Source of the DNA: Crossaster papposus
Lineage: Eukaryota > Echinodermata > Asteroidea > Velatida > Solasteridae
Assembly: GCA_037893245.1 (NCBI GenBank)
Contig: JBAIAA010001510.1
Location: 28,873-92,872 of the forward strand
Length of the DNA stretch: 64,000 nucleotides
Direction of reading: 5' to 3'
Part shown: in pieces, positions 8,320 to 62,731 of the stretch
Layout of the letters: every line of letters starts with the position of its first letter
Numbering within the stretch: position 1 is the first letter of the stretch
Position numbers and translations under genes: made by a program
The notes under the pieces: model-generated
What the model was told of the DNA's origin: nothing
Databases searched by the model: none
Seen by the model: the letters and a program-made list of their open reading frames with translations, nothing else

Positions 8320-10710
8320 AACTCGAGGGCTTGTCCCGACATCATGTGTTTATTTCTTATGCACACTTCTTTCCCTTTACATATTTCTTATGCACACTTC
8401 TTTCCCTTTACATATTTCTTATGCACACTTCTTTCCCTTTACATATTTCTTATGCACACTTCTTTCCCTTTACATATTTCTTATGCACACTTCTTTCCCT
8501 TTACATATTTCTTATGCACACTTCTTTCCCTTTACATATTTCTTATGCACACTTCTTTCCCTTTACATATTTCTTATGCACACTTCTTTCCCTTTACATA
8601 TTTCTTATGCACACTTCTTTCCCTTTACATATTTCTTATTCACACTTCTTTCCCTTTACATATTTCTTATGCACACTTCTTTCCCTTTACATATTTCTTA
8701 TGCACACTTCTTTCCCTTTACATATTTCTTATGCACACTTCTTTCCCTTTACATATTTCTTATGCACACTTCTTTCCCTTTACATATTTAACTCGAGGGC
8801 TTGTCCCGACATCATGTGTTTATTTCTTATGCACACTTCTTTCCCTTTACATATTTCTTATGCACACTTCTTTCCCTTTACATATTTCTTATGCACACTT
8901 CTTTCCCTTTACATATTTATTATGCACACTTCTTTCCCTTTACATATTTAACTCGAGGGCTTGTCCCGACATCATGTGTTTATTTCTTATGCACACTTCT
9001 TTCCCTTTACATATTTCTTATGCACACTTCTTTCCCTTTACATATTTCTTATGCACACTTCTTTCCCTTTACATATTTCTTATGCACACTTCTTTCCCTT
9101 TACATATTTCTTATGCACACTTCTTTCCCTTTACATATTTCTTATGCACACTTCTTTCCCTTTACATATTTCTTATGCACACTTCTTTCCCTTTAAATAT
9201 TTCTTATGCACACTTCTTTCCCTTTACATATTTCTTATGCACACTTCTTTCCCTTTACATATTTCTTATGCACACTTCTTTCCCTTTACATATTTCTTAT
9301 GCACACTTCTTTCCCTTTACATATTTCTTATGCACACTTCTTTCCCTTTACATATTTCTTATGCACACTTCTTTCCCTTTACATATTTCTTATGCACACT
9401 TCTTTCCCTTTACATATTTCTTATGCACACTTCTTTCCCTTTACATATTTCTTATGCACACTTCTTTCCCTTTACATATTTCTTATGCACACTTCTTTCC
9501 CTTTACATATTTCTTATGCACACTTCTTTCCCTTTACATATTTCTTATGCACACTTCTTTCTCTTTACATATTTATTATGCACACTTCTTTCCCTTTACA
9601 TATTTAACTCGAGGGCTTGTCCCGACATCATGTGTTTATTTCTTATGCACACTTCTTTCCCTTTACATATTTCTTATGCACACTTCTTTCCCTTTACATA
9701 TTTCTTATGCACATTTCTTTCCCTTTACATATTTCTTATGCACACTTCTTTCCCTTTACATATTTCTTATGCACACTTCTTTCCCTTTACATATTTCTTA
9801 TGCACACTTCTTTCCCTTTACATATTTCTTATGCACACTTCTTTCCCTTTACATATTTCTTATGCACACTTCTTTCCCTTTACATATTTCTTATGCACAC
9901 TTCTTTCCCTTTACATATTTCTTATTCACACTTCTTTCCCTTTACATATTTCTTATGCACACTTCTTTCCCTTTACATATTTCTTATGCACACTTCTTTC
10001 CCTTTACATATTTCTTATGCACACTTCTTTCCCTTTACATATTTCTTATGCACACTTCTTTCCCTTTACATATTTAACTCGAGGGCTTGTCCCGACATCA
10101 TGTGTTTATTTCTTATGCACACTTCTTTCCCTTTACATATTTCTTATGCACACTTCTTTCCCTTTACATATTTCTTATGCACACTTCTTTCCCTTTACAT
10201 ATTTCTTATGCACACTTCTTTCCCTTTACATATTTCTTATGCACACTTCTTTCCCTTTACATATTTCTTATGCACACTTCTTTCCCTTTACATATTTCTT
10301 ATGCACACTTCTTTCCCTTTACATATTTCTTAGGCACACTTCTTTCCCTTTACATATTTCTTATGCACACTTCTTTCCCTTTACATATTTCTTATGCACA
10401 CTTCTTTCCCTTTACATATTTCTTATGCACACTTCTTTCCCTTTACATATTTCTTATGCACACTTCTTTCCCTTTACATATTTCTTATGCACACTTCTTT
10501 CCCTTTACATATTTCTTATGCACACTTCTTTCCCTTTACATATTTAACTCGAGGGCTTGTCCCGACATCATGTGTTTATTTCTTATGCACACTTCTTTCC
10601 CTTTACATATTTCTTATGCACACTTCTTTCCCTTTATTATTTCTTATGCACACTTCTTTCCCTTTACATATTTAACTCGAGGGCTTGTCCCGACATCATG
10701 TGTTTATTTC
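8320..10710 (+). repeat. Haplotype A domain: seven 36-bp inserts
   Basis: Complete 36-bp units start at 8320, 8790, 8950, 9606, 10076, 10546 and 10674. All begin AACTCGAGGG and carry the A core GTCCCGAC. The intervening stretches are 14, 4, 20, 14, 14 and 3 monomers; the last is 1 bp short because one monomer reads CTTTATTATTTC. The repeated 470-bp spacing (8320, 9606 and 10076 to their next insert) and shared private variants (TTATTCACAC at 8637 and 9923) show that blocks of one insert plus its monomers were duplicated. Single-base variants also occur at 9196, 9562, 9714 and 10333. Confidence 0.92.
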
Positions 10711-13478
10711 TTATGCACACTTTTTTTCCTTTACATATTTCTTATGCACACTTCTTTCCCTTTACATATTTCTTATGCACACTTCTTTCCCTTTACATAT
10801 TTCTTATGCACACTTCTTTCATTTTACATATTTCTTATGCACACTTCTTTCCCTTTACATATTTCTTATGCACACTTCTTTCCCTTTACATATTTCTTAT
10901 GCACACTTCTTTCCCTTTACATATTTCTTATGCACACTTCTTTCCCTTTACATATTTCTTATGCACACTTCTTTCCCTTTACATATTTCTTATGCACACT
11001 TCTTTCCCTTTACATATTTCTTATGCACACTTCTTTCCCTTTACATATTTCTTATGCACACTTCTTTCCCTTTACATATTTATTATGCACACTTCTTTCC
11101 CTTTACATATTTATTATGCACACTTCTTTCCCTTTACATATTTCTTATGCACACTTCTTTCCCTTTACATATTTCTTATGCACACTTCTTTCCCTTTACA
11201 TATTTCTTATGCACACTTCTTTCCCTTTACATATTTCTTATGCACACTTCTTTCCCTTTACATATTTCTTATGCACACTTCTTTCCCTTTACATATTTCT
11301 TATGCACACTTCTTTCCCTTTACATATTTCTTATGCACACTTCTTTCCCTTTACATATTTATTATGCACACTTCTTTCCCTTTACATATTTCTTATGCAC
11401 ACTTCTTTCCCTTTACATATTTCTTATGCACACTTCTTTCCCTTTACATATTTCTTATGCACACTTCTTTCCCTTTACATATTTCTTATGCACACTTCTT
11501 TCCCTTTACATATTTAACTCGAGGGCTTGTTCCCACATCATGTGTTTATTTCTTATGCACACTTCTTTCCCTTTACATATTTCTTATGCACACTTCTTTC
11601 CCTTTACATATTTCTTATGCACACTTCTTTCCCTTTACATATTTCTTATGCACACTTCTTTCCCTTTACATATTTCTTATGAACACTTCTTTCCCTTTAC
11701 ATATTTCTTATGCACACTTCTTTCCCTTTACATATTTCTTATGCACACTTCTTTCCCTTTACATATTTCTTATGCACACTTCTTTCCCTTTACATATTTC
11801 TTATGCACACTTCTTTCCCTTTACATATTTCTTATGCACACTTCTTTTCCTTTACATATTTCTTATGCACACTTCTTTCCCTTTACATATTTCTTATGCA
11901 CACTTCTTTCCCTTTACATATTTCTTATGCACACTTCTTTCCCTTTACATATTTCTTATGCACACTTCTTTCCCTTTACATATTTCTTATGCACACTTCT
12001 TTCCCTTTACATATTTCTTATGCACACTTCTTTCCCTTTACATATTTCTTATGCACACTTCTTTCCCTTTACATATTTCTTATGCACACTTCTTTTCCTT
12101 TACATATTTCTTATGCACACTTCTTTCCCTTTACATATTTCTTATGCACACTTCTTTCCCTTTACATATTTCTTATGCACACTTCTTTCCCTTTACATAT
12201 TTCTTATGCACACTTTTTTCCCTTTACATATTTCTTATGCACACTTCTTTCCCTTTACATATTTCTTATGCACACTTCTTTCCCTTTACATATTTCTTAT
12301 GCACACTTCTTTCCCTTTACATATTTATTATGCACACTTCTTTCCCTTTACATATTTCTTATGCACACTTCTTTCCCTTTACATATTTCTTATGCACACT
12401 TCTTTCCCTTTACATATTTCTTATGCACACTTCTTTCCCTTTACATATTTCTTATGCACACTTCTTTCCCTTTACATATTTCTTATGCACACTTCTTTCC
12501 CTTTACATATTTCTTATGCACACTTCTTTCCCTTTACATATGTCTTATGCACACTTCTTTCCCTTTACATATTTCTTATGCACACTTCTTTCCCTTTACA
12601 TATTTCTTATGCACACTTCTTTCCCTTTACATATTTCTTATGCACACTTCTTTCCCTTTACATATTTCTTATGCACACTTCTTTCCCTTTACATATTTCT
12701 TATGCACACTTCTTTCCCTTTACATATTTCTTATGCACACTTCTTTCCCTTTACATATTTCTTATGCACACTTCTTTCCCTTTACATATTTCTTATGCAC
12801 ACTTCTTTCCCTTTACATATTTCTTATGCACACTTCTTTCCCTTTACATATTTCTTATGCACACTTCTTTCCCTTTACATATTTCTTATGCACACTTCTT
12901 TCCCTTTACATATTTCTTATGCACACTTCTTTCCCTTTACATATTTCTTATGCACACTTCTTTCCCTTTACATATTTCTTATGCACACTTCTTTCCCTTT
13001 ACATATTTATTATGCACACTTCTTTCCCTTTACATATTTATTATGCACACTTCTTTCCCTTTACATATTTATTATGCACACTTCTTTCCCTTTACATATT
13101 TAACTCGAGGGCTTGTCCCGACATCATGTGTTTATTTCTTATGCACACTTCTTTCCCTTTACATATTTCTTATGCACACTTCTTTCCCTTTACATATTTC
13201 TTATGCACACTTCTTTCCCTTTACATATTTCTTATGCACACTTCTTTCCCTTTACATATTTCTTATGCACACTTCTTTCCCTTTACATATTTCTTATGCA
13301 CACTTCTTTCCCTTTACATATTTCTTATGCACACTTCTTTCCCTTTACATATTTCTTATGCACACTTCTTTCCCTTTACATATTTCTTATGCACACTTCT
13401 TTCCCTTTACATATTTCTTATGCACACTTCTTTCCCTTTACATATTTCTTATGCACACTTCTTTCCCTTTACATATTT
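10711..13478 (+). repeat. Transition zone from haplotype A to B inserts
   Basis: Two inserts lie here: haplotype B at 11516 and haplotype A at 13102, with 26, 50 and 11 monomers in the three gaps starting from 10674. Monomers are more diverged than elsewhere, with many TTTATTATG variants, CTTTTTTTCC at 10721, CTTTCATTTT at 10819 and several CTTCTTTTCC forms. The insert at 11516 is followed 163 bp later by a TATGAACAC monomer, the signature of the 1431-bp block further right, so this zone already contains a relative of that block. Confidence 0.85.
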
Positions 13479-15410
13479 AACTCGAGGGCTTGTTCCCACA
13501 TCATGTGTTTATTTCTTATGCACACTTCTTTCCCTTTACATATTTCTTATGCACACTTCTTTCCCTTTACATATTTCTTATGCACACTTCTTTCCCTTTA
13601 CATATTTCTTATGCACACTTCTTTCCCTTTACATATTTCTTATGCACACTTCTTTCCCTTTACATATTTCTTATGCACACTTCTTTCCCTTTACATATTT
13701 CTTATGCACACTTCTTTCCCTTTACATATTTCTTATGCACACTTCTTTCCCTTTACATATTTCTTATGCACACTTCTTTCCCTTTACATATTTCTTATGC
13801 ACACTTCTTTCCCTTTACATATTTCTTATGCACACTTCTTTCCCTTTACATATTTCTTATGCACACTTCTTTCCCTTTACATATTTCTTATGCACACTTC
13901 TTTCCCTTTACATATTTCTTATGCACACTTCTTTCCCTTTACATATTTCTTATGCACACTTCTTTCCCTTTACATATTTAACTCGAGGGCTTGTTCCCAC
14001 ATCATGTGTTTATTTCTTATGCACACTTCTTTCCCTTTACATATTTATTATGCACACTTCTTTCCCTTTACATATTTCTTATGCACACTTCTTTCCCTTT
14101 ACATATTTCTTATGTACACTTCTTTCCCTTTACATATCTCTTATGAACACTTCTTTCTCTTTACATATTTCTTATGCACACTTATTTCCCTTTACATATT
14201 TCTTATGCACACTTCTTTCCCTTTACATATTTCTTATGCACACTTCTTTCCCTTTACATATTTCTTATGCACACTTCTTTCCCTTTACATATTTCTTATG
14301 CACACTTCTTTCCCTTTACATATTTCTTATGCACACGTTTTTCCCTTTACATATTTCTTATGCACACTTCTTTCCCTTTACATATTTCTTATGCACACTT
14401 TTTTCCCTTTACATATTTCTTATGCACACTTCTTTCCCTTTACATATTTCTTATGCACACTTCTTTCCCTTTACATATTTCTTATGCACACTTCTTTCCC
14501 TTTACATATTTCTTATGCACACTTCTTTCCCTTTACATATTTATTATGCACACTTCTTTCCCTTTACATATTTATTATGCACACTTCTTTCCCTTTACAT
14601 ATTTATTATGCACACTTCTTTCCCTTTACATATTTATTATGCACACTTCTTTCCCTTTACATATTTCTTATGCACACTTCTTTCCCTTTACATATTTCTT
14701 ATGCACACTTCTTTCCCTTTACATATTTCTTATGCACACTTCTTTCCCTTTACATATTTCTTATGCACACTTCTTTCCCTTTACATATTTCTTATGCACA
14801 CTTCTTTCCCTTTACATATTTCTTATGCACACTTCTTTCCCTTTACATATTTCTTATGCACACTTCTTTCCCTTTACATATTTCTTATGCACACTTCTTT
14901 CCCTTTACATATTTCTTATGCACACTTCTTTCCCTTTACATATTTCTTATGCACACTTCTTTCCCTTTACATATTTCTTATGCACACTTCTTTCCCTTTA
15001 CATATTTCTTATGAACACTTCTTTCCCTTTACATATTTCTTATGCACACTTCTTTCCCTTTACATATTTCTTATGCACACTTCTTTCCCTTTACATATTT
15101 CTTATGCACACTTCTTTCCCTTTACATATTTCTTATGCACACTTCTTTCCCTTTACATATTTCTTATGCACACTTCTTTCCCTTTACATATTTCTTATGC
15201 ACACTTCTTTCCCTTTACATATTTCTTATGCACACTTCTTTCCCTTTACATATTTCTTATGCACACTTCTTTCCCTTTACATATTTCTTATGCACACTTC
15301 TTTCCCTTTACATATTTCTTATGCACACTTCTTTCCCTTTACATATTTCTTATGCACACTTCTTTCCCTTTACATATTTCTTATGCACACTTCTTTCCCT
15401 TTACATATTT
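13479..15410 (+). repeat. 1932-bp higher-order repeat, copy 1 (S + L blocks)
   Basis: The unit consists of a short block S (one insert plus 15 monomers, 501 bp, 13479-13979) and a long block L (one insert plus 45 monomers, 1431 bp, 13980-15410). L carries a fixed order of variant monomers measured from its insert: TATGTACAC at +132, TATGAACAC with TTCTCT at +163, CACTTATTTCC next, CACACGTTTTTCC near +357, four TTTATTATG monomers near +570 to +660, and a second TATGAACAC near +1032. Both inserts are haplotype B. This copy lacks the CTTCTTCCCC variant found at the end of S in the other copies. Confidence 0.93.
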
Positions 15411-16660
15411 AACTCGAGGGCTTGTTCCCACATCATGTGTTTATTTCTTATGCACACTTCTTTCCCTTTACATATTTCTTATGCACACTTCTTTCCCTTT
15501 ACATATTTCTTATGCACACTTCTTTCCCTTTACATATTTCTTATGCACACTTCTTTCCCTTTACATATTTCTTATGCACACTTCTTTCCCTTTACATATT
15601 TCTTATGCACACTTCTTTCCCTTTACATATTTCTTATGCACACTTCTTTCCCTTTACATATTTCTTATGCACACTTCTTTCCCTTTACATATTTCTTATG
15701 CACACTTCTTTCCCTTTACATATTTCTTATGCACACTTCTTTCCCTTTACATATTTCTTATGCACACTTCTTTCCCTTTACATATTTCTTATGCACACTT
15801 CTTTCCCTTTACATATTTCTTATGCACACTTCTTTCCCTTTACATATTTCTTATGCACACTTCTTTCCCTTTACATATTTCTTATGCACACTTCTTCCCC
15901 TTTACATATTTAACTCGAGGGCTTGTTCCCACATCATGTGTTTATTTCTTATGCACACTTCTTTCCCTTTACATATTTCTTATGCACACTTCTTTCCCTT
16001 TACATATTTCTTATGCACACTTCTTTCCCTTTACATATTTCTTATGTACACTTCTTTCCCTTTACATATTTCTTATGAACACTTCTTTCTCTTTACATAT
16101 TTCTTATGCACACTTATTTCCCTTTACATATTTCTTATGCACACTTCTTTCCCTTTACATATTTCTTATGCACACTTCTTTCCCTTTACATATTTCTTAT
16201 GCACACTTCTTTCCCTTTACATATTTCTTATGCACACTTCTTTCCCTTTACATATTTCTTATGCACACGTTTTTCCCTTTACATATTTCTTATGCACACT
16301 TCTTTCCCTTTACATATTTCTTATGCACACTTTTTTCCCTTTACATATTTCTTATGCACACTTCTTTCCCTTTACATATTTCTTATGCACACTTCTTTCC
16401 CTTTACATATTTCTTATGCACACTTCTTTCCCTTTACATATTTCTTATGCACACTTCTTTCCCTTTACATATTTCTTATGCACACTTCTTTCCCTTTACA
16501 TATTTCTTATGCACACTTCTTTCCCTTTACATATTTCTTATGCACACTTCTTTCCCTTTACATATTTCTTATGCACACTTCTTTCCCTTTACATATTTCT
16601 TATGCACACTTCTTTCCCTTTACATATTTCTTATGCACACTTCTTTCCCTTTACATATTT
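15411..16660 (+). repeat. Higher-order repeat copy 2, L block truncated
   Basis: S is complete (15411-15911) and ends with the CTTCTTCCCC variant monomer. L (15912-16660) is only 749 bp, an insert plus 23 monomers instead of 45. Its left half keeps the usual markers up to CACACGTTTTTCC at about 16269, but the run of four TTTATTATG monomers and the second TATGAACAC are missing. The loss is 682 bp, exactly 22 monomers, consistent with an in-register unequal crossover. Confidence 0.9.
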
Positions 16661-18091
16661 AACTCGAGGGCTTGTTCCCACATCATGTGTTTATTTCTTA
16701 TGCACACTTCTTTCCCTTTACATATTTATTATGCACACTTCTTTCCCTTTACATATTTCTTATGCACACTTCTTTCCCTTTACATATTTCTTATGTACAC
16801 TTCTTTCCCTTTACATATCTCTTATGAACACTTCTTTCTCTTTACATATTTCTTATGCACACTTATTTCCCTTTACATATTTCTTATGCACACTTCTTTC
16901 CCTTTACATATTTCTTATGCACACTTCTTTCCCTTTACATATTTCTTATGCACACTTCTTTCCCTTTACATATTTCTTATGCACACTTCTTTCCCTTTAC
17001 ATATTTCTTATGCACACGTTTTTCCCTTTACATATTTCTTATGCACACTTCTTTCCCTTTACATATTTCTTATGCACACTTTTTTCCCTTTACATATTTC
17101 TTATGCACACTTCTTTCCCTTTACATATTTCTTATGCACACTTCTTTCCCTTTACATATTTCTTATGCACACTTCTTTCCCTTTACATATTTCTTATGCA
17201 CACTTCTTTCCCTTTACATATTTATTATGCACACTTCTTTCCCTTTACATATTTATTATGCACACTTCTTTCCCTTTACATATTTATTATGCACACTTCT
17301 TTCCCTTTACATATTTATTATGCACACTTCTTTCCCTTTACATATTTCTTATGCACACTTCTTTCCCTTTACATATTTCTTATGCACACTTCTTTCCCTT
17401 TACATATTTCTTATGCACACTTCTTTCCCTTTACATATTTCTTATGCACACTTCTTTCCCTTTACATATTTCTTATGCACACTTCTTTCCCTTTACATAT
17501 TTCTTATGCACACTTCTTTCCCTTTACATATTTCTTATGCACACTTCTTTCCCTTTACATATTTCTTATGCACACTTCTTTCCCTTTACATATTTCTTAT
17601 GCACACTTCTTTCCCTTTACATATTTCTTATGCACACTTCTTTCCCTTTACATATTTCTTATGCACACTTCTTTCCCTTTACATATTTCTTATGAACACT
17701 TCTTTCCCTTTACATATTTCTTATGCACACTTCTTTCCCTTTACATATTTCTTATGCACACTTCTTTCCCTTTACATATTTCTTATGCACACTTCTTTCC
17801 CTTTACATATTTCTTATGCACACTTCTTTCCCTTTACATATTTCTTATGCACACTTCTTTCCCTTTACATATTTCTTATGCACACTTCTTTCCCTTTACA
17901 TATTTCTTATGCACACTTCTTTCCCTTTACATATTTCTTATGCACACTTCTTTCCCTTTACATATTTCTTATGCACACTTCTTTCCCTTTACATATTTCT
18001 TATGCACACTTCTTTCCCTTTACATATTTCTTATGCACACTTCTTTCCCTTTACATATTTCTTATGCACACTTCTTTCCCTTTACATATTT
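16661..18091 (+). repeat. L block (1431 bp), haplotype B
   Basis: An L block without its own S block. It has all the L markers at the same offsets (+132, +163, +357, the four TTTATTATG monomers and the late TATGAACAC). It also carries a TTTATTATG monomer two units after the insert and TACATATCTC before TATGAACAC, both shared with the L blocks at 13980 and 23919 but not with those at 18593 and 25851. L blocks therefore come in at least two subtypes. Confidence 0.91.
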
Positions 18092-20023
18092 AACTCGAGG
18101 GCTTGTTCCCACATCATGTGTTTATTTCTTATGCACACTTCTTTCCCTTTACATATTTCTTATGCACACTTCTTTCCCTTTACATATTTCTTATGCACAC
18201 TTCTTTCCCTTTACATATTTCTTATGCACACTTCTTTCCCTTTACATATTTCTTATGCACACTTCTTTCCCTTTACATATTTCTTATGCACACTTCTTTC
18301 CCTTTACATATTTCTTATGCACACTTCTTTCCCTTTACATATTTCTTATGCACACTTCTTTCCCTTTACATATTTCTTATGCACACTTCTTTCCCTTTAC
18401 ATATTTCTTATGCACACTTCTTTCCCTTTACATATTTCTTATGCACACTTCTTTCCCTTTACATATTTCTTATGCACACTTCTTTCCCTTTACATATTTC
18501 TTATGCACACTTCTTTCCCTTTACATATTTCTTATGCACACTTCTTTCCCTTTACATATTTCTTATGCACACTTCTTCCCCTTTACATATTTAACTCGAG
18601 GGCTTGTTCCCACATCATGTGTTTATTTCTTATGCACACTTCTTTCCCTTTACATATTTCTTATGCACACTTCTTTCCCTTTACATATTTCTTATGCACA
18701 CTTCTTTCCCTTTACATATTTCTTATGTACACTTCTTTCCCTTTACATATTTCTTATGAACACTTCTTTCTCTTTACATATTTATTATGCACACTTATTT
18801 CCCTTTACATATTTCTTATGCACACTTCTTTCCCTTTACATATTTCTTATGCACACTTCTTTCCCTTTACATATTTCTTATGCACACTTCTTTCCCTTTA
18901 CATATTTCTTATGCACACTTCTTTCCCTTTACATATTTCTTATGCACACGTTTTTCCCTTTACATATTTCTTATGCACACTTCTTTCCCTTTACATATTT
19001 CTTATGCACACTTTTTTCCCTTTACATATTTCTTATGCACACTTCTTTCCCTTTACATATTTCTTATGCACACTTCTTTCCCTTTACATATTTCTTATGC
19101 ACACTTCTTTCCCTTTACATATTTCTTATGCACACTTCTTTCCCTTTACATATTTATTATGCACACTTCTTTCCCTTTACATATTTATTATGCACACTTC
19201 TTTCCCTTTACATATTTATTATGCACACTTCTTTCCCTTTACATATTTATTATGCACACTTCTTTCCCTTTACATATTTCTTATGCACACTTCTTTCCCT
19301 TTACATATTTCTTATGCACACTTCTTTCCCTTTACATATTTCTTATGCACACTTCTTTCCCTTTACATATTTCTTATGCACACTTCTTTCCCTTTACATA
19401 TTTCTTATGCACACTTCTTTCCCTTTACATATTTCTTATGCACACTTCTTTCCCTTTACATATTTCTTATGCACACTTCTTTCCCTTTACATATTTCTTA
19501 TGCACACTTCTTTCCCTTTACATATTTCTTATGCACACTTCTTTCCCTTTACATATTTCTTATGCACACTTCTTTCCCTTTACATATTTCTTATGCACAC
19601 TTCTTTCCCTTTACATATTTCTTATGAACACTTCTTTCCCTTTACATATTTCTTATGCACACTTCTTTCCCTTTACATATTTCTTATGCACACTTCTTTC
19701 CCTTTACATATTTCTTATGCACACTTCTTTCCCTTTACATATTTCTTATGCACACTTCTTTCCCTTTACATATTTCTTATGCACACTTCTTTTCCTTTAC
19801 ATATTTCTTATGCACACTTCCTTCCCTTTACATATTTCTTATGCACACTTCCTTCCCTTTACATATTTCTTATGCACACTTCTTTCCCTTTACATATTTC
19901 TTATGCACACTTCTTTCCCTTTACATATTTCTTATGCACACTTCTTTCCCTTTACATATTTCTTATGCACACTTCTTTCCCTTTACATATTTCTTATGCA
20001 CACTTCTTTCCCTTTACATATTT
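18092..20023 (+). repeat. 1932-bp higher-order repeat, complete copy
   Basis: S at 18092-18592 ends with the CTTCTTCCCC variant; L at 18593-20023 has the full marker series. The late part of L carries CTTTTCC and two CTTCCTTCCC monomers near 19790-19857, shared with the copy at 25350 but absent from copy 1. A private TTTATTATG change lies at 18784. Confidence 0.92.
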
Positions 20024-40935: not shown

Positions 40936-40959
40936 ACACTTCTTTCCCTTTACATATTT

Positions 40960-48746: not shown

Positions 48747-51700
48747 ATGCACACTTCTTTCCCTTTACATATTTCTTATGCACACTTCTTTCCCTTTACA
48801 TATTTCTTATGCACACTTCTTTCCCTTTACATATTTCTTATGCACACTTCTTTCCCTTTACATATTTCTTATGCACACTTCTTTCCCTTTACATATTTCT
48901 TATGCACACTTCTTTCCCTTTACATATTTCTTATGCACACTTCTTTCCCTTTACATATTTCTTATGCACACTTCTTTCCCTTTACATATTTCTTATGCAC
49001 ACTTCTTTCCCTTTACATATTTCTTATGCACACTTCTTTCCCTTTACATATTTCTTATGCACACTTCTTTCCCTTTACATATTTCTTATGCACACTTCTT
49101 TCCCTTTACATATTTCTTATGCACACTTCTTTCCCTTTACATATTTCTTATGCACACTTCTTTCCCTTTACATATTTCTTATGCACACTTCTTTCCCTTT
49201 ACATATTTCTTATGCACACTTCTTTCCCTTTACATATTTCTTATGCACACTTCTTTCCCTTTACATATTTCTTATGCACACTTCTTTCCCTTTACATATT
49301 TCTTATGCACACTTCTTTCCCTTTACATATTTCTTATGCACACTTCTTTCCCTTTACATATTTCTTATGCACACTTCTTTCCCTTTACATATTTCTTATG
49401 CACACTTCTTTCCCTTTACATATTTCTTATGCACACTTCTTTCCATTTACATATTTCTTATGCACACTTCTTTCCCTTTACATATTTCTTATGCACACTT
49501 CTTTCCCTTTACATATTTCTTATGCACACTTCTTTCCCTTTACATATTTCTTATGCACACTTCTTTCCCTTTACATATTTCTTATGCACACTTCTTTCCC
49601 TTTACATATTTCTTATGCACACTTCTTTCCCTTTACATATTTCTTATGCACACTTCTTTCCCTTTACATATTTCTTATGCACACTTCTTTCCCTTTACAT
49701 ATTTCTTATGCACACTTCTTTCCCTTTACATATTTCTTATGCACACTTCTTTCCCTTTACATATTTCTTATGCACACTTCTTTCCCTTTACATATTTCTT
49801 ATGCACACTTCTTTCCCTTTACATATTTCTTATGCACACTTCTTTCCCTTTACATATTTCTTATGCACACTTCTTTCCTTTACATATTTCTTATGCACAC
49901 TTCTTTCCCTTTACATATTTCTTATGCACACTTCTTTCCCTTTACATATTTCTTATGCACACTTCTTTCCCTTTACATATTTCTTATGCACACTTCTTTC
50001 CCTTTACATATTTCTTATGCACACTTCTTTCCCTTTACATATTTCTTATGCACACTTCTTTCCCTTTACATATTTCTTATGCACACTTCTTTCCCTTTAC
50101 ATATTTCTTATGCACACTTCTTTCCCTTTACATATTTCTTATGCACACTTCTTTCCCTTTACATATTTCTTATGCACACTTCTTTCCCTTTACATATTTC
50201 TTATGCACACTTCTTTCCCTTTACATATTTCTTATGCACACTTCTTTCCCTTTACATATTTCTTATGCACACTTCTTTCCCTTTACATATTTCTTATGCA
50301 CACTTCTTTCCCTTTACATATTTCTTATGCACACTTCTTTCCCTTTACATATTTCTTATGCACACTTCTTTCCCTTTACATATTTCTTATGCACACTTCT
50401 TTCCCTTTACATATTTCTTATGCACACTTCTTTCCCTTTACATATTTCTTATGCACACTTCTTTCCCTTTACATATTTCTTATGCACACTTCTTTCCCTT
50501 TACATATTTCTTATGCACACTTCTTTCCCTTTACATATTTCTTATGCACACTTCTTTCCCTTTACATATTTCTTATGCACACTTCTTTCCCTTTACATAT
50601 TTCTTATGCACACTTCTTTCCCTTTACATATTTCTTATGCACACTTCTTTCCCTTTACATATTTCTTATGCACACTTCTTTCCCTTTACATATTTCTTAT
50701 GCACACTTCTTTCCCTTTACATATTTCTTATGCACACTTCTTTCCCTTTACATATTTCTTATGCACACTTCTTTCCCTTTACATATTTCTTATGCACACT
50801 TCTTTCCCTTTACATATTTCTTATGCACACTTCTTTCCCTTTACATATTTCTTATGCACACTTCTTTCCCTTTACATATTTCTTATGCACACTTCTTTCC
50901 CTTTACATATTTCTTATGCACACTTCTTTCCCTTTACATATTTCTTATGCACACTTCTTTCCCTTTACATATTTCTTATGCACACTTCTTTCCCTTTACA
51001 TATTTCTTATGCACACTTCTTTCCCTTTACATATTTCTTATGCACACTTCTTTCCCTTTACATATTTCTTATGCACACTTCTTTCCCTTTACATATTTCT
51101 TATGCACACTTCTTTCCCTTTACATATTTCTTATGCACACTTCTTTCCCTTTACATATTTCTTATGCACACTTCTTTCCCTTTACATATTTCTTATGCAC
51201 ACTTCTTTCCCTTTACATATTTCTTATGCACACTTCTTTCCCTTTACATATTTCTTATGCACACTTCTTTCCCTTTACATATTTCTTATGCACACTTCTT
51301 TCCCTTTACATATTTCTTATGCACACTTCTTTCCCTTTACATATTTCTTATGCACACTTCTTTCCCTTTACATATTTCTTATGCACACTTCTTTCCCTTT
51401 ACATATTTCTTATGCACACTTCTTTCCCTTTACATATTTCTTATGCACACTTCTTTCCCTTTACATATTTCTTATGCACACTTCTTTCCCTTTACATATT
51501 TCTTATGCACACTTCTTTCCCTTTACATATTTCTTATGCACACTTCTTTCCCTTTACATATTTCTTATGCACACTTCTTTCCCTTTACATATTTCTTATG
51601 CACACTTCTTTCCCTTTACATATTTCTTATGCACACTTCTTTCCCTTTACATATTTCTTATGCACACTTCTTTCCCTTTACATATTTCTTATGCACACTT

Positions 51701-52617
51701 CTTTCCCTTTACATATTTCTTATGCACACTTCTTTCCCTTTACATATTTCTTATGCACACTTCTTTCCCTTTACATATTTCTTATGCACACTTCTTTCCC
51801 TTTACATATTTCTTATGCACACTTCTTTCCCTTTACATATTTCTTATGCACACTTCTTTCCCTTTACATATTTCTTATGCACACTTCTTTCCCTTTACAT
51901 ATTTCTTATGCACACTTCTTTCCCTTTACATATTTCTTATGCACACTTCTTTCCCTTTACATATTTCTTATGCACACTTCTTTCCCTTTACATATTTCTT
52001 ATGCACACTTCTTTCCCTTTACATATTTCTTATGCACACTTCTTTCCCTTTACATATTTCTTATGCACACTTCTTTCCCTTTACATATTTCTTATGCACA
52101 CTTCTTTCCCTTTACATATTTCTTATGCACACTTCTTTCCCTTTACATATTTCTTATGCACACTTCTTTCCCTTTACATATTTCTTATGCACACTTCTTT
52201 CCCTTTACATATTTCTTATGCACACTTCTTTCCCTTTACATATTTCTTATGCACACTTCTTTCCCTTTACATATTTCTTATGCACACTTCTTTCCCTTTA
52301 CATATTTCTTATGCACACTTCTTTCCCTTTACATATTTCTTATGCACACTTCTTTCCCTTTACATATTTCTTATGCACACTTCTTTCCCTTTACATATTT
52401 CTTATGCACACTTCTTTCCCTTTACATATTTCTTATGCACACTTCTTTCCCTTTACATATTTCTTATGCACACTTCTTTCCCTTTACATATTTCTTATGC
52501 ACACTTCTTTCCCTTTACATATTTCTTATGCACACTTCTTTCCCTTTACATATTTCTTATGCACACTTCTTTCCCTTTACATATTTCTTATGCACACTTC
52601 TTTCCCTTTACATATTT
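48747..52617 (+). repeat. Homogeneous monomer block H5
   Basis: About 125 monomers matching the consensus, with two exceptions: CTTTCCATTT at 49445 and a missing C at about 49878. From 49879 to 52617 (88 monomers) I see no variant. The block runs directly into a triplet of haplotype B inserts. Confidence 0.92.
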
Positions 52618-52787
52618 AACTCGAGGGCTTGTTCCCACATCATGTGTTTATTTCTTATGCACACTTCTTTCCCTTTACATATTTAACTCGAGGGCTTGTT
52701 CCCACATCATGTGTTTATTTCTTATGCACACTTCTTTCCCTTTACATATTTAACTCGAGGGCTTGTTCCCACATCATGTGTTTATTT
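52618..52787 (+). repeat. Triplet of haplotype B inserts (67-bp dimer units)
   Basis: Inserts at 52618, 52685 and 52752, each separated from the next by a single 31-bp monomer, so a 67-bp period (36 + 31) repeats here. An identical triplet occurs at 54281. This is the densest arrangement of the 36-mer and shows what an ancestral 36/31 dimer array could look like. Confidence 0.94.
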
Positions 52788-54280
52788 CTTATGCACACTT
52801 CTTTCCCTTTACATATTTCTTATGCACACTTCTTTCCCTTTACATATTTCTTATGCACACTTCTTTCCCTTTACATATTTCTTATGCACACTTCTTTCCC
52901 TTTACATATTTCTTATGCACACTTCTTTCCCTTTACATATTTCTTATGCACACTTCTTTCCCTTTACATATTTCTTATGCACACTTCTTTCCCTTTACAT
53001 ATTTCTTATGCACACTTCTTTCCCTTTACATATTTCTTATGCACACTTCTTTCCCTTTACATATTTCTTATGCACACTTCTTTCCCTTTACATATTTCTT
53101 ATGCACACTTCTTTCCCTTTACATATTTCTTATGCACACTTCTTTCCCTTTACATATTTCTTATGCACACTTCTTTCCCTTTACATATTTAACTCCAGGG
53201 CTTGTCCCGACATCATGTGTTTATTTCTTATGCACACTTCTTTCCCTTTACATATTTCTTATGCACACTTCTTTCCCTTTACATATTTCTTATGGCACAC
53301 TTCTTTCCCTTTACATATTTCTTATGCACACTTCTTTCCCTTTACATATTTCTTATGCACACTTCTTTCCCTTTACATATTTCTTATGCACACTTCTTTC
53401 CCTTTACATATTTCTTATGCACACTTCTTTCCCTTTACATATTTCTTATGCACACTTCTTTCCCTTTACATATTTCTTATGCACACTTCTTCTCCTTTAC
53501 ATATTTCTTATGCACACTTCTTTCCCTTTACATATTTCTTATGCACACTTCTTTCCCTTTACATATTTCTTATGCACACTTCTTTCCCTTTACATATTTC
53601 TTATGCACACTTCTTTCCCTTTACATATTTCTTATGCACACTTCTTTCCCTTTACATATTTCTATGCACACTTCTTTCCCTTTACATATTTCTTATGCAC
53701 ACTTCTTTCCCTTTACATATTTCTTATGCACACTTCTTTCCCTTTACATATTTCTTATGCACACTTCTTTCCCTTTACATATTTCTTATGCACACTTCTT
53801 TCCCTTTACATATTTCTTATGCACACTTCTTTCCCTTTACATATTTCTTATGCACACTTCTTTCCCTTTACATATTTCTTATGCACACTTCTTTCCCTTT
53901 ACATATTTCTTATGCACACTTCTTTCCCTTTACATATTTCTTATGCACACTTCTTTCCCTTTACATATTTCTTATGCACACTTCTTTCCCTTTACATATT
54001 TCTTATGCACACTTCTTTCCCTTTACATATTTCTTATGCACACTTCTTTCCCTTTACATATTTCTTATGCACACTTCTTTCCCTTTACATATTTCTTATG
54101 CACACTTCTTTCCCTTTACATATTTCTTATGCACACTTCTTTCCCTTTACATATTTCTTATGCACACTTCTTTCCCTTTACATATTTCTTATGCACACTT
54201 CTTTCCCTTTACATATTTCTTATGCACACTTCTTTCCCTTTACATATTTCTTATGCACACTTCTTTCCCTTTACATATTT
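52788..54280 (+). repeat. Monomers between the two insert triplets, one haplotype A insert
   Basis: Thirteen monomers, an insert at 53191-53226, then 34 monomers. The insert is haplotype A, the only one in the right-hand B domain, and its XhoI site is broken (AACTCCAGGG). The 34-monomer stretch has a 1-bp gain (TATGGCACAC at about 53295), a 1-bp loss (TTTCTATGC at about 53664) and CTTCTTCTCC at 53491. Confidence 0.9.
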
Positions 54281-54450
54281 AACTCGAGGGCTTGTTCCCA
54301 CATCATGTGTTTATTTCTTATGCACACTTCTTTCCCTTTACATATTTAACTCGAGGGCTTGTTCCCACATCATGTGTTTATTTCTTATGCACACTTCTTT
54401 CCCTTTACATATTTAACTCGAGGGCTTGTTCCCACATCATGTGTTTATTT
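54281..54450 (+). repeat. Second triplet of haplotype B inserts
   Basis: Inserts at 54281, 54348 and 54415, each separated by one monomer, same phase and core as the triplet 1,663 bp upstream. It is followed by 26 monomers, whereas the first triplet is followed by 13, so only the triplet itself is shared. Confidence 0.94.
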
Positions 54451-55256
54451 CTTATGCACACTTCTTTCCCTTTACATATTTCTTATGCACACTTCTTTCC
54501 CTTTACATATTTCTTATGCACACTTCTTTCCCTTTACATATTTCTTATGCACACTTCTTTCCCTTTACATATTTCTTATGCACACTTCTTTCCCTTTACA
54601 TATTTCTTATGCACACTTCTTTCCCTTTACATATTTCTTATGCACACTTCTTTCCCTTTACATATTTCTTATGCACACTTCTTTCCCTTTACATATTTCT
54701 TATGCACACTTCTTTCCCTTTACATATTTCTTATGCACACTTCTTTCCTTTTACATATTTCTTATGCACACTTCTTTCCCTTTACATATTTCTTATGCAC
54801 ACTTCTTTCCCTTTACATATTTTGTATGCACACTTCTTTCCCTTTACATATTTCTTATGCACACTTCTTTCCCTTTACATATTTCTTATGCACACTTCTT
54901 TCCCTTTACATATTTCTTATGCACACTTCTTTCCCTTTACGTATTTCTTATGCACACTTCTTTCCCTTTACATATTTCTTATGCACACTTCTTTCCCTTT
55001 ACATATTTCTTATGCACACTTCTTTCCCTTTACATATTTCTTATGCACACTTCTTTCCCTTTACATATTTCTTATGCACACTTCTTTCCCTTTACATATT
55101 GCCTATGCACACTTCTTTCCCTTTACATATTTCTTATGCACACTTCTTTCCCTTTACATATTTCTTATGCACACTTCTTTCCCTTTACATATTTCTTATG
55201 CACACTTCTTTCCCTTTACATATTTCTTATGCACACTTCTTTCCCTTTACATATTT

Positions 55257-55359
55257 AACTCGAGGGCTTGTTCACACATCATGTGTTTATTTCTTATGCA
55301 CACTTCTTTCCCTTTACATATTTAACTCGAGGGCTTGTTCCCACATCATGTGTTTATTT
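55257..55359 (+). repeat. Doublet of haplotype B inserts
   Basis: Inserts at 55257 and 55324 with one monomer between. The first has C to A in the core (GTTCACAC), the B-side counterpart of the change at 43720. Two monomers with an extra C (TTTCCTTATG) follow at about 55733 and 56415, and TTTCGTATG monomers occur at 55390, 55857, 56539 and 57099. Confidence 0.93.
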
Positions 55360-57469
55360 CTTATGCACACTTCTTTCCCTTTACATATTTCGTATGCACA
55401 CTTCTTTCCCTTTACATATTTCTTATGCACACTTCTTTCCCTTTACATATTTCTTATGCACACTTCTTTCCCTTTACATATTTCTTATGCACACTTCTTT
55501 CCCTTTACATATTTCTTATGCACACTTCTTTCCCTTTACATATTTCTTATGCACACTTCTTTCCCTTTACATATTTCTTATGCACACTTCTTTCCCTTTA
55601 CATATTTCTTATGCACACTTCTTTCCCTTTACATATTTCTTATGCACAATTCTTTCCCTTTACATCTTTCTTATGCACACTTCTTTCCCTTTACATATTT
55701 CTTATGCACACTTCTTTCCCTTTACATATTTCCTTATGCACACTTCTTTCCCTTTACATATTTATTATGCACACTTCTTTCCCTTTACATATTTCTTATG
55801 CACACTTCTTTCCCTTTACATATTTCTTATGCACACTTCTTTCCCTTTACATATTTCGTATGCACACTTCTTTCCCTTTACATATTTCTTATGCACACTT
55901 CTTTCCCTTTACATATTTCTTATGCACACTTCTTTCCCTTTACATATTTCTTATGCACACTTTTTTCCCTTTACATATTTCTTATGCACACTTCTTTCCC
56001 TTTACATATTTCTTATGCACACTTCTTTCCCTTTACATATTTCTTATGCACACTTCTTTCCCTTTACATATTTCTTATGCACACTTCTTTCCCTTTACAT
56101 ATTTCTTATGCACACTTCTTTCCCTTTACATATTTATTATGCACACTTCTTTCCCTTTACATATTTCTTATGCACACTTCTTTCCCTTTACATATTTCTT
56201 ATGCACACTTCTTTCCCTTTACATATTTCTTATGCACACTTCTTTCCCTTTACATATTTCTTATGCACACTTCTTTCCCTTTACATATTTCTTATGCACA
56301 CTTCTTTCCCTTTACATATTTCTTATGCACACTTCTTTCCCTTTACATATTTCTTATGCACACTTCTTTCCCTTTACATATTTCTTATGCACACTTCTTT
56401 CCCTTTACATATTTCCTTATGCACACTTCTTTCCCTTTACATATTTCTTATGCACACTTCTTTCCCTTTACATATTTCTTATGCACACTTCTTTCCCTTT
56501 ACATATTTCTTATGCACACTTCTTTCCCTTTACATATTTCGTATGCACACTTCTTTCCCTTTACATATTTCTTATGCACACTTCTTTCCCTTTACATATT
56601 TCTTATGCACACTTCTTTCCCTTTACATATTTCTTATGCACACTTCTTTCCCTTTACATATTTCTTATGCACACTTCTTTCCCTTTACATATTTCTTATG
56701 CACACTTCTTTCCCTTTACATATTTCTTATGCACACTTCTTTCCCTTTACATATTTCTTATGCACACTTCTTTCCCTTTACATATTTCTTATGCACACTT
56801 CTTTCCCTTTACATATTTCTTATGCACACTTCTTTCCCTTTACATATTTCTTATGCACACTTCTTTCCCTTTACATATTTCTTATGCACACTTCTTTCCC
56901 TTTACATATTTCTTATGCACACTTCTTTCCCTTTACATATTTATTATGCACACTTTTTTCCCTTTACATATTTCTTATGCACTCTTCTTTCCCTTTACAT
57001 ATTTCTTATGCACACTTCTTTCCCTTTACATATTTCTTATGCACACTTCTTTCCCTTTACATATTTCTTATGCACACTTCTTTCCCTTTACATATTTCGT
57101 ATGCACACTTCTTTCCCTTTACATATTTCTTATGCACACTTCTTTCCCTTTACATATTTCTTATGCACACTTCTTTCCCTTTACATATTTCTTATGCACA
57201 CTTCTGTCCCTTTACATATTTCTTATGCACACTTCTTTCCCTTTACATATTTCTTATGCACACTTCTTTCCCTTTACATATTTCTTATGCACACTTCTTT
57301 CCCTTTACATATTTCTTATGCACACTTCTGTCCCTTTACATATTTCTTATGCACACTTCTTTCCCTTTACATATTTCTTATGCACACTTCTTTCCCTTTA
57401 CATATTTCTTATGCACACTTCTTTCCCTTTACATATTTCTTATGCACACTTCTTTCCCTTTACATATTT

Positions 57470-60393
57470 AACTCGAGGGCTTGTTCCCACATCATGTGTT
57501 TATTTCTTATGCACACTTCTTTCCCTTTACATATTTAACTCGAGGGCTTGTTCCCACATCATGTGTTTATTTCTTATGCACACTTCTTTCCCTTTACATA
57601 TTTCTTATGCACACTTCTTTCCCTTTACATATTTTTTATGCACACTTCTTTCCCTTTACATATTTCTTATGCACACTTCTTTCCCTTTACATATTTCTTA
57701 TGCACACTTCTTTCCCTTTACATATTTCTTATGCACACTTCTTTCCCTTTACATATTTCTTATGCACACTTCTTTCCTTTTACATATTTCTTATGCACAC
57801 TTCTTTCCCTTTACATATTTCTTATGCACACTTCTTTCCCTTTACATATTTCTTATGCACACTTCTTTCCCTTTACATATTTCTTATGCACACTTCTTTC
57901 CCTTTACATATTTCTTATGCACACTTCTTTCCCTTTACATATTTCTTATGCACACTTCTTTCCCTTTACATATTTCTTATGCACACTTCTTTCCCTTTAC
58001 ATATTTCTTATGCACACTTCTTTCCCTTTACATATTTCTTATGCACACTTCTTTCCCTTTACATATTTCTTATGCACACTTCTTTCCCTTTACATATTTC
58101 TTATGCACACTTCTTTCCCTTTACATATTTCTTATGCACACTTCTTTCCCTTTACATATTTCTTATGCACACTTCTTTCCCTTTACATATTTCTTATGCA
58201 CACTTCTTTCCCTTTACATATTTCTTATGCACACTTCTTTCCCTTTACATATTTCTTATGCACACTTCTTTCCCTTTACATATTTCTTATGCACACTTCT
58301 TTCCCTTTACATATTTCTTATGCACACTTCTTTCCCTTTACATATTTCTTATGCACACTTCTTTCCCTTTACATATTTCTTATGCACACATCTTTCCCTT
58401 TACATATGTCTTATGCACACTTCTTTCCCTTTACATATGTCTTATGCACACTTCTTTCCCTTTACATATGTCTTATGCACACTTCTTTCCCTTTACATAT
58501 GTCTTATGCACACTTCTTTCCCTTTACATATTTCTTATGCACACTTCTTTCCCTTTACATATTTCTTATGCACACTTCTTTCCCTTTACATATTTCTTAT
58601 GCACACTTCTTTCCCTTTACATATTTCTTATGCACACTTCTTTCCCTTTACATATTTCTTATGCACACTTCTTTCCCTTTACATATTTATTATGCACACT
58701 TCTTTCCCCTTACATATTTATTATGCACACTTCTTTCCCTTTACATATTTATTATGCACACTTCTTTCCCTTTACATATTTCTTATGCACACTTCTTTCC
58801 CTTTACATATTTTTTATGCACACTTCTTTCCCTTGACATATTTCTTATGCACACTTCTTTCCCTTTACATATTTCTTATGTACACTTCTTTCCCTTTACA
58901 TATTTCTTATGCACACTTCTTTCCCTTTACATATTTCTTATGCACACTTCTTTCCCTTTACATATTTCTTATGCACACTTCTTTCCCTTTACATATTTCT
59001 TATGCACACTTCTTTCCCTTTACATATTTCTTATGCACACTTCTTTCCCTTTACATATTTCTTATGCACACTTCTTTCCCTTTACATATTTCTTATGCAC
59101 ACTTCTTTCCCTTTACATATTTCTTATGCACACTTCTTTCCCTTTACATATTTCTTATGCACACTTCTTTCCCTTTACATATTTCTTATGCACACTTCTT
59201 TCCCTTTACATATTTCTTATGCACACTTCTTTCCCTTTACATATTTCTTATGCACACTTCTTTCCCTTTACATATTTCTTATGCACACTTCTTTCCCTTT
59301 ACATATTTCTTATGCACACTTCTTTCCCTTTACATATTTCTTATGCACACTTCTTTCCCTTTACATATTTCTTATGCACACTTCTTTCCCTTTACATATT
59401 TCTTATGCACACTTCTTTCCCTTTACATATTTCTTATGCACACTTCTTTCCCTTTACATATTTCTTATGCACACTTCTTTCCCTTTACATATTTCTTATG
59501 CACACTTCTCTCCCTTTACATATTTCTTATGCACACTTCTTTCCCTTTACATATTTCTTATGCACACTTCTTTCCCTTTACATATTTCTTATGCACACTT
59601 CTTTCCCTTTACATATTTCTTATGCACACTTCTTTCCCTTTACATATTTCTTATGCACACTTCTTTCCCTTTACATATTTCTTATGCACACTTCTTTCCC
59701 TTTACATATTTCTTATGCACACTTCTTTCCCTTTACATATTTCTTATGCACACTTCTTTCCCTTTACATATTTCTTATGCACACTTCTTTCCCTTTACAT
59801 ATTTCTTATGCACACTTCTTTCCCTTTACATATTTATTATGCACACTTTTTTCCCTTTACATATTTCTTATGCACTCTTCTTTCCCTTTACATATTTCTT
59901 ATGCACACTTCTTTCCCTTTACATATTTCTTATGCACACTTCTTTCCCTTTACATATTTCTTATGCACACTTCTTTCCCTTTACATATTTCTTATGCACA
60001 CTTCTTTCCCTTTACATATTTCTTATGCACACTTCTTTCCCTTTACATATTTCTTATGCACACTTCTTTCCCTTTACATATTTCTTATGCACACTTCTGT
60101 CCCTTTACATATTTCTTATGCACACTTCTTTCCCTTTACATATTTCTTATGCACACTTCTTTCCCTTTACATATTTCTTATGCACACTTCTTTCCCTTTA
60201 CATATTTCTTATGCACACTTCTGTCCCTTTACATATTTCTTATGCACACTTCTTTCCCTTTACATATTTCTTATGCACACTTCTTTCCCTTTACATATTT
60301 CTTATGCACACTTCTTTCCCTTTACATATTTCTTATGCACACTTCTTTCCCTTTACATATTTCTTATGCACACTTCTTTCCCTTTACATATTT
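57470..60393 (+). repeat. 2,924-bp higher-order repeat, copy 1
   Basis: Opens with a doublet of haplotype B inserts (57470 and 57537). Marker order: an ATTTTTTATG monomer, a CACACATCTTT monomer at 58382 followed by four monomers with ACATATGTC (an 8-bp palindrome ACATATGT), TTTATTATG monomers with CCCCTTACAT at about 58706, ATTTTTTATG at 58816, CCCTTGACAT at about 58833, CACTTTTTTCC and GCACTCTTC at 59874, and two CTTCTGTCCC monomers 124 bp apart (60099, 60223). It equals two inserts plus 92 monomers. Confidence 0.91.
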
Positions 60394-62731
60394 AACTCGA
60401 GGGCTTGTTCCCACATCATGTGTTTATTTCTTATGCACACTTCTTTCCCTTTACATATTTAACTCGAGGGCTTGTTCCCACATCATGTGTTTATTTCTTA
60501 TGCACACTTCTTTCCCTTTACATATTTCTTATGCACACTTCTTTCCCTTTACATATTTTTTATGCACACTTCTTTCCCTTTACATATTTCTTATGCACAC
60601 TTCTTTCCCTTTACATATTTCTTATGCACACTTCTTTCCCTTTACATATTTTTTATGCACACTTCTTTCCCTTTACATATTTCTTATGCACACTTCTTTC
60701 CCTTTACATATTTCTTATGCACACTTCTTTCCCTTTACATATTTCTTATGCACACTTCTTTCCCTTTACATATTTCTTATGCACACTTCTTTCCCTTTAC
60801 ATATTTCTTATGCACACTTCTTTCCCTTTACATATTTCTTATGCACACTTCTTTCCCTTTACATATTTCTTATGCACACTTCTTTCCCTTTACATATTTC
60901 TTATGCACACTTCTTTCCCTTTACATATTTCTTATGCACACTTCTTTCCCTTTACATATTTCTTATGCACACTTCTTTCCCTTTACATATTTCTTATGCA
61001 CACTTCTTTCCCTTTACATATTTCTTATGCACACTTCTTTCCCTTTACATATTTCTTATGCACACTTCTTTCCCTTTACATATTTCTTATGCACACTTCT
61101 TTCCCTTTACATATTTCTTATGCACACTTCTTTCCCTTTACATATTTCTTATGCACACTTCTTTCCCTTTACATATTTCTTATGCACACTTCTTTCCCTT
61201 TACATATTTCTTATGCACACTTCTTTCCCTTTACATATTTCTTATGCACACTTCTTTCCCTTTACATATTTCTTATGCACACTTCTTTCCCTTTACATAT
61301 TTCTTATGCACACATCTTTCCCTTTACATATGTCTTATGCACACTTCTTTCCCTTTACATATGTCTTATGCACACTTCTTTCCCTTTACATATGTCTTAT
61401 GCACACTTCTTTCCCTTTACATATTTCTTATGCACACTTCTTTCCCTTTACATATTTCTTATGCACACTTCTTTCCCTTTACATATTTCTTATGCACACT
61501 TCTTTCCCTTTACATATTTCTTATGCACACTTCTTTCCCTTTACATATTTCTTATGCACACTTCTTTCCCTTTACATATTTATTATGCACACTTCTTTCC
61601 CCTTACATATTTATTATGCACACTTCTTTCCCTTTACATATTTATTATGCACACTTCTTTCCCTTTACATATCTCTTATGCCCACTTCTTTCCCTTTACA
61701 TATTTTTTATGCACACTTCTTTCCCTTGACATATTTCTTATGCACACTTCTTTCCCTTTACATATTTCTTATGTACACTTCTTTCCCTTTACATATTTCT
61801 TATGCACACTTCTTTCCCTTTACATATTTCTTATGCACACTTCTTTCCCTTTACATATTTCTTATGCACACTTCTTTCCCTTTACATATTTCTTATGCAC
61901 ACTTCTTTCCCTTTACATATTTCTTATGCACACTTCTTTCCCTTTACATATTTCTTATGCACACTTCTTTCCCTTTACATATTTCTTATGCACACTTCTT
62001 TCCCTTTACATATTTCTTATGCACACTTCTTTCCCTTTACATATTTCTTATGCACACTTCTTTCCCTTTACATATTTCTTATGCACACTTCTTTCCCTTT
62101 ACATATTTCTTATGCACACTTCTTTCCCTTTACATATTTCTTATGCACACTTCTTTCCCTTTACATATTTCTTATGCACACTTCTTTCCCTTTACATATT
62201 TCTTATGCACACTTCTTTCCCTTTACATATTTCTTATGCACACTTCTTTCCCTTTACATATTTCTTATGCACACTTCTTTCCCTTTACATATTTCTTATG
62301 CACACTTCTTTCCCTTTACATATTTCTTATGCACACTTCTTTCCCTTTACATATTTCTTATGCACACTTCTTTCCCTTTACATATTTCTTATGCACACTT
62401 CTTTCCCTTTACATATTTCTTATGCACACTTCTTTCCCTTTACATATTTCTTATGCACACTTCTTTCCCTTTACATATTTCTTATGCACACTTCTTTCCC
62501 TTTACATATTTCTTATGCACACTTCTTTCCCTTTACATATTTCTTATGCACACTTCTTTCCCTTTACATATTTCTTATGCACACTTCTTTCCCTTTACAT
62601 ATTTCTTATGCACACTTCTTTCCCTTTACATATTTCTTATGCACACTTCTTTCCCTTTACATAGTTCTTATGCACACTTCTTTCCCTTTACATATTTCTT
62701 ATGCACACTTCTTTCCCTTTACATATTTCTT
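60394..62731 (+). repeat. Higher-order repeat copy 2, cut short
   Basis: Insert doublet at 60394 and 60461, CACACATCTTT at 61306 (offset 2,924 from copy 1), then only three ACATATGTC monomers instead of four, so all later markers are offset by 2,893 bp: ATTTTTTATG at 61709, CCCTTGACAT at about 61726. Private variants include TCTCTTATGCCCAC near 61672. No new insert doublet follows; the marker series restarts at 62732 instead. Confidence 0.89.

Follow-up and report, generated by a model that had tools for sequence, protein, structure and literature searches.

A 64,000-nucleotide stretch of the Crossaster papposus contig JBAIAA010001510.1 (positions 28,873 to 92,872; GenBank assembly GCA_037893245.1), referred to here as the window, consists of a satellite array of 31-bp monomers (unit A) into which a 36-bp unit (unit B) is set, always at the same phase. 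How did a unit of another length come to stand at a single phase of the monomer? A first-pass annotation took the phase lock to mean that B is a constituent of the satellite and not a late insertion. Our analysis instead makes it probable that B originated outside the 31-bp array, joined it in a single event at a joint marked by the sequence TATTT, and was then amplified in register into higher-order repeats (HORs). On this reading, the phase lock is inheritance and not a property of B. Coordinates below are those of the window, and all features lie on its forward strand.

Two units and one junction

Unit A, CTTATGCACACTTCTTTCCCTTTACATATTT, fills the window (1..64000) in a single orientation and continues beyond both ends. 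Tandem Repeats Finder, run on positions 1-64000, reported a 31-bp period with 2056.6 copies and 96% matches; the GC content of the window is about 32%. Units were called by a dynamic-programming decomposition with A and B both as templates, the check that the first-pass annotation had proposed. This divided the window into 2059 units, 2013 A and 46 B, of which the two end units are incomplete. Identity to the consensus was found for 1743 of the 2013 A units. When the two end units were dropped, 1976 of 2011 A units were exactly 31 bp long, and only three (24, 20, and 42 bp) deviated in length by more than 2 bp.

The decomposition confirmed 45 full 36-mers between 8320 and 60496, all at a single phase, and added one degenerate B copy of 34 bp (29923-29956) that was absent from the earlier count. 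This copy has lost one A and one G, carries one G-to-C change, and is flanked by 76 identical A units before it and 274 after it. A search with the first 15 bases of B, allowing up to 3 mismatches, gave 45 matches, compared with 0.02 expected by chance. B units fall into two subtypes defined by positions 16 and 19, which always change together: 28 copies carry T..C (subtype TC) and 18 carry C..G (subtype CG).

The full B copies share one monomer junction, as had been claimed. The left flank ACATATTT was present in 45/45 copies and the right flank CTTATG in 44/45, the remaining copy (at 22705) being followed by ATTATG. Gaps between successive full copies were exactly 36 + 31n in 35 of 44 cases. 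Taken modulo 31, the nine off-register gaps were 1 short (five gaps), 2 short (two), 2 over (one), and 3 over (one); listed indels in A units explain all nine, provided that the 34-bp copy is also counted in the 16,438-bp gap. Every value of n named in the first-pass annotation was found, and further values between neighboring B units, among which the 34-bp copy was counted, are 68, 82, 84, 91, 160, and 444. Spacing is irregular, with n running from 1 to 444 between neighboring B units. Independent random insertions are thereby excluded, as the annotation had argued.

No B-specific 8-mer occurred outside the B units on either strand of the window, so fragments of B at other phases were rejected. 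The sole B-like piece besides the 46 copies is a hybrid-like unit of 24 bp at 6622-6645, which also sits at the usual B joint and carries CTCGAG. It reads as the 5′ end of B (B 1 to 8-13) followed by the 3′ half of A (A 11-16 to 31), with small deletions. Its alignment score was 17 as the best chimera, a maximum over many joins tried and without a null, compared with 8.5 as B and 6.5 as A; the decomposition itself called the unit A.

Shared flanking variants

Flank sharing was compared with a control, repeated 500 times, in which B was taken out and 45 copies (the one at 29923 was omitted) were returned to randomly chosen junctions within the three domains described below. For both flank sharing and clustering, a neighboring B was treated as an informative unit. 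A same-sequence partner sharing at least one informative flank unit was found for 38/46 B units (control mean, 7.7; maximum, 21). Sharing of at least two units was seen for 26/46 (control mean, 2.3; maximum, 9) and of at least three for 11/46 (control mean, 1.4; maximum, 6). None of the 500 control repeats reached the observed sharing at any of the three levels. This excess over the control indicates that B was copied along with its neighbors, and it supports the earlier proposal that B arose once and spread by in-register duplication and exchange. One such flank marker is an A unit at 10613-10642 that combines loss of C25 with A26T. It recurs at 43849, 44323, 47089, and 47563, and in 5/5 cases a CG-subtype B lies two units downstream of it.

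The 45 full B copies are therefore not 45 independent observations. Clustering of the 46 B units by flank haplotype gave 18 clusters when one shared unit sufficed (the loosest setting), 30 when two were required, and 39 when three were; the 18 loosest clusters consist of 10 multicopy clusters and 8 single copies. Both the gap arithmetic and the shared flanks show variant units staying in register through exchange. In-register copying is a general rule of the entire array and nothing peculiar to B. Because the whole array copies in register, B would be phase-locked either way, whether it was original or was inserted once.

Higher-order repeat domains

All 45 full B copies lie in three heterogeneous domains, at 8.3-27.6 kb (24 copies), 38.5-49.9 kb (8 copies), and 52.6-64 kb (13 copies). 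The HOR part of domain 1 (8320..27317) holds 9 CG-subtype and 15 TC-subtype copies. The first twelve of these start at 8320, 8790, 8950, 9606, 10076, 10546, 10674, 11516, 13102, 13479, 13980, and 15411, and the other twelve at 15912, 16661, 18092, 18593, 20024, 21765, 22142, 22705, 23919, 25350, 25851, and 27282. A 1932-bp HOR at 13980..15911 is composed of B plus 45 A (1431 bp) followed by B plus 15 A (501 bp). More copies of it start at 16661 and 23919, with related partial ones around 18593, 20024, and 25851. Identical stretches of 85, 78, and 73 units were found in this domain, each containing 17 to 20 informative units, 3 of them B.

The HOR part of domain 2 (43720..47659) holds eight B copies, all of subtype CG, at 43720 (with one extra change), 43910, 44194, 44384, 46960, 47150, 47434, and 47624. 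They form a nested 190/284/190-bp pattern that is repeated at 3240 bp. In domain 3 (52618..60496), 12 of the 13 B copies stand in 67-bp B-A-B doublets or triplets, and one, at 53191, is single. The triplets are at 52618/52685/52752 and 54281/54348/54415, and the doublets are at 55257/55324, 57470/57537, and 60394/60461; Tandem Repeats Finder lists four of these five stretches as 67-bp arrays. Regular alternation of A and B was not found across the window: 12/46 B units alternate with A, and the remaining gaps have n of 3 to 444.

The best repeat lags were 233 units in domain 1, 104 in domain 2, and 93 in domain 3. At lag 104, 19/114 informative positions matched, and the signal at lag 93 (about 2.9 kb) was weaker, with 10/90. 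The window thus holds tandem monomers in one orientation together with near-identical multimonomer blocks, as in a satellite with HORs, more weakly in domain 3.

Origin of the 36-bp unit

While the common junction and the in-register spread were upheld, the further step from phase lock to constituent unit was not. One duplicated insertion, carried along with its flanks, would give the same phase lock, and so would sequence-targeted insertion, so phase cannot discriminate among these origins. To this are added the lack of B-A homology, a repeat of TATTT at the ends of B, and the rarity of B (46/2059 units), which is clumped in three domains; together they leave the constituent reading unsupported. 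"Late" is nevertheless relative, since the HOR duplications carry B and so probably came after it.

Whether aligned in register, in every rotation, or locally on both strands, B showed no homology to A above that of shuffles (500 to 5000, depending on the test). In register, mononucleotide shuffles gave P values of 0.35 (subtype TC) and 0.53 (subtype CG), which rose to 0.91 and 0.98 when the last five bases were left out; dinucleotide shuffles were similar. B as a length variant of the A monomer was accordingly dismissed.

The sole match between B and A is the terminal TATTT, which both ends B and precedes it. Before the first B it occupies 8315-8319 and is repeated as the last five bases of that unit (8351-8355), and the same holds at all 45 full copies. 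Taken as an insertion, B is a 31-bp core, AACTCGAGGGCTTGTTCCCACATCATGTGTT, plus a direct repeat of 5 bp; taken as a join, it shows a 5-bp microhomology. The A-A joint without B has TATTT once, as expected for a target-site duplication and equally for a microhomology join. Target-site duplications, which the first-pass annotation had named as evidence against its reading, are thus weakly present. TATTT does stand on each side of the 31-bp core, but the P value for a terminal ambiguity of at least five bases (0.0096; shuffled inserts, random phases) has to be discounted, as the match was noticed post hoc.

The B pattern had no exact match in viral or prokaryote contigs. The segment 8200-8400 had no blastn match in phages or in plasmids (the latter with the low-complexity filter on), and no Rfam family reached its gathering score in 8000-12000.

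The A-A joint CATATTTCTTATG (e.g., 8003-8015) forms a small dyad, CATA-TTTCT-TATG, and the entry point of B is the loop of this dyad. A stretch of two A units folded modestly better than shuffles (z, -3.23; 4/200 shuffles equaled it) because of CATA...TATG. B as a foldback was rejected, the folds of two A-B-A stretches being on a par with those of shuffles (z, -0.68 and -0.31). A dyad of the 3′ end of B with the next A (P, 0.04) matches at 6/8 positions, equal to the A-A joint, and was not used.

A model for the spread of B

In the model that we favor, a foreign segment would have joined the array once, at a monomer joint, through the TATTT common to both, either as a 31-bp insert with a 5-bp target-site duplication or by a microhomology join. 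With the 31-bp registers aligned, unequal exchange or duplication would then have copied B with its neighbors, since pairing that keeps the 31-bp register is favored. Such copying may have built the local HORs (1932, 3240, and about 2920 bp) as well as the 67-bp B-A doublets and triplets, and recent homogenization (or assembly) may have left the pure 31-mer blocks between the HOR domains.

Several points weigh against this model. The founding insertion itself is not seen, and the 5-bp match, at P 0.01 and noticed post hoc, could be a chance match. A satellite that was composite from the start and once rich in B would look identical today, and the relation 31 = 36 - 5 could mean that B belongs to another family of 31-bp monomers. 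At the loosest setting the copies still fall into 18 clusters, 8 of them singletons, rather than into one tree with a single founder, and B may have arrived separately a small number of times. When in-register duplication and deletion were simulated under neutrality in a toy model with arbitrary parameters, 9/300 single insertions grew to 46 copies and the other 291 disappeared, which makes spread by drift alone unlikely for any one insertion, though not across many.

Alternative explanations

A single insertion followed by amplification is nonetheless favored over an original constituent. B could have been present from the start, in a composite satellite (e.g., A-B, 67 bp) or as a much-diverged monomer, and been diluted by expansion of A. 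The 67-bp doublets and triplets at five places, the presence of B in all three heterogeneous domains, and the unit at 6622-6645, in which B and A seem to meet at corresponding positions, would all suit such a history, which we consider unlikely: the doublets are confined to the right-hand domain, the hybrid-like unit occurs once, is noisy, and has a chimera score without a null, and an ancestral relationship finds no trace in the B-A alignments. Repeated sequence-targeted insertion, by a small nonautonomous element or a homing-like step always choosing ATTT|CTTATG, would be phase-locked as well and could leave the 5-bp direct repeat seen at the copies. As the main route it is very unlikely, given flank-variant sharing far above that of random re-insertion; moreover, a 36-bp piece whose termini are complementary over 3 bp only (AAC...GTT, read by eye) is not recognizable as an element. 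There is also a slim chance that B is a 31-bp micro-insertion, exactly as long as a monomer, plus a 5-bp target-site duplication, from a small mobile element or from targeted repair at the hairpin-prone CATA-TTTCT-TATG joint, and that it seeded a new 67-bp satellite that may be beginning to take over the right-hand domain.

B might also owe its persistence to selection as a protein-binding or methylation site, and its sequence has features that such a role could use. B accounts for 1654/64000 bases of the window and for 62/108 of its CpG dinucleotides, while consensus A has none. CTCGAG is present in 45/46 B units (lost in the copy at 53191), and subtype TC contains an 11-bp palindrome, CACATCATGTG (best arm, 5; P, 0.04 by shuffles), compared with 9 bp and an arm of 4 (P, 0.19) in subtype CG. 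A functional site should mutate less, but this sign was not seen and, if anything, the trend was reversed. Private variants occurred in 3/45 full B units and 41/2010 A units (P, 0.07; 0.17 against A outside pure runs), the total of 2010 having been set by hand as 2013 less the three odd units, with the incomplete end units still counted. With the 34-bp copy the count was 4/46 (P, 0.017 against all A and 0.06 against A outside pure runs), and all comparisons lean toward more variants in B. The irregular spacing of B (n, 1 to 444) also weighs against selection. No evidence of selection on B was seen, and a selected function is not needed; retention by selection is thus highly improbable as judged from the sequence. 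That part of the pattern arose in assembly, with consensus filling producing the pure runs of A and poor polishing the odd units, is scarcely credible. It would account for three changes in the degenerate 34-bp B amid 76 and 274 flawless A units, for the additional small deletions in the 6622 unit, and for the concentration of 18/34 single-base indels of A units within 38-42 kb, directly after the 274-unit run. It leaves untouched the 45 full B copies, their common joint, and the shared flank variants.

Comparison with known satellites

In alpha satellite, unit variants are inherited in register. Smith reportedly described satellite evolution by unequal crossover in 1976 (cited in PMC9859433). 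The array described here is a case of concerted evolution in a satellite with HORs, ordinary in kind but an unusually clear example. A literature search by sequence words and unit length did not find this satellite described among the matches listed in open-access papers. The comparisons below cover unit length, arrangement, unit relation, and base composition; in arrangement or in unit relation the array differs from HSat1A, Chio1/2, and the Meloidogyne satellites.

As in alpha-satellite HORs, insofar as the excerpts of PMC9859433 describe them, the window has near-identical multimonomer repeats and homogeneous and variable blocks with sharp transitions. Unlike alpha satellite, with its 171-bp monomer, the array has a monomer of 31 bp, its marker unit is not a diverged monomer, and the spacing of its B units is irregular along most of its length. 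The closest parallel for the joint comes from the complex HORs of Meloidogyne, in which unlike satellites are joined at short conserved motifs and for which cut-and-paste insertion, illegitimate recombination, or both have been proposed (excerpted text of PMC3694981). Unlike units meet at a short shared motif here too, but the Meloidogyne motifs in that text are 17 and 20 bp long, one of them CENP-B-box-like, while here only TATTT is shared.

Short two-unit satellites offer further comparisons. In human HSat1A, 17-bp A and 25-bp B units alternate (PMC9909926, in part). It too is a short AT-rich two-unit satellite with longer repeats of up to several kilobases, according to the same extracts, but here B makes up 46/2059 units and alternates with A in five short stretches only. 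Chio1 and Chio2 of Chionographis have monomers of 23 and 28 bp (passages of PMC10264360). These also are two short unit lengths 5 bp apart, intermingled and including an HOR cluster; the passages present them, however, as variants of one sequence (a 5-bp deletion and one substitution) in both orientations, whereas A and B have no detectable relation and a single orientation. Cervid satellite I shares a 31-bp base unit, in the form of subrepeats, but in the portions of PMC7288315 drawn on it has a GC content of 54% (three table rows) and monomers of 0.7 to 1 kb, compared with about 32% GC here.

If B entered once and was amplified, one window would show a nonmonomer segment joining a satellite, from the join at a motif through co-duplication, subtype divergence, and growth of HORs to the first steps toward a composite dimer. 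B units and their linked variants can serve as markers for ordering exchange events. A caution for other arrays is that phase lock alone does not tell a long-standing constituent apart from one insertion amplified later.

Pure runs and irregular units

Runs of identical consensus A units before and between the domains number 198 (20..6157), 37, 76 (27567-29922), 274 (29957..38450, the longest), and 88 (49890..52617). The longest run in 2000 unit permutations was 79, which the runs of 274, 198, and 88 exceed. Pure runs could result from recent homogenization or local expansion or from consensus filling during assembly, and the indel cluster at 38451-42000 possibly reflects low consensus quality.

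The three A-type units of odd length fall inside 1.4 kb. Besides the hybrid-like unit at 6622-6645, these are a unit with an 11-bp deletion (6708-6727) and one with an 11-bp duplication (7937-7978). The odd units at 6.6-8.0 kb and at 29.9 kb should not bear much weight.

In domain 3, an A unit marked by C1A,C14T precedes the doublet at 57,470 by 527 bp and the one at 60,394 by 558 bp; a third instance, at 63,628, is cut short by the window end. A further B-A-B doublet may tentatively be placed past the window end, near 64,155-64,186, a weak prediction because the marker spacings differ (2,893 bp, then 3,792 bp). Units with A8G, which creates GCGCAC, the main source of CpG inside A, occur in short blocks of five to six in a row and are recurrent in the middle domain, within 40495-40866, 42759-43161, 45876-46185, and 48589-49425.

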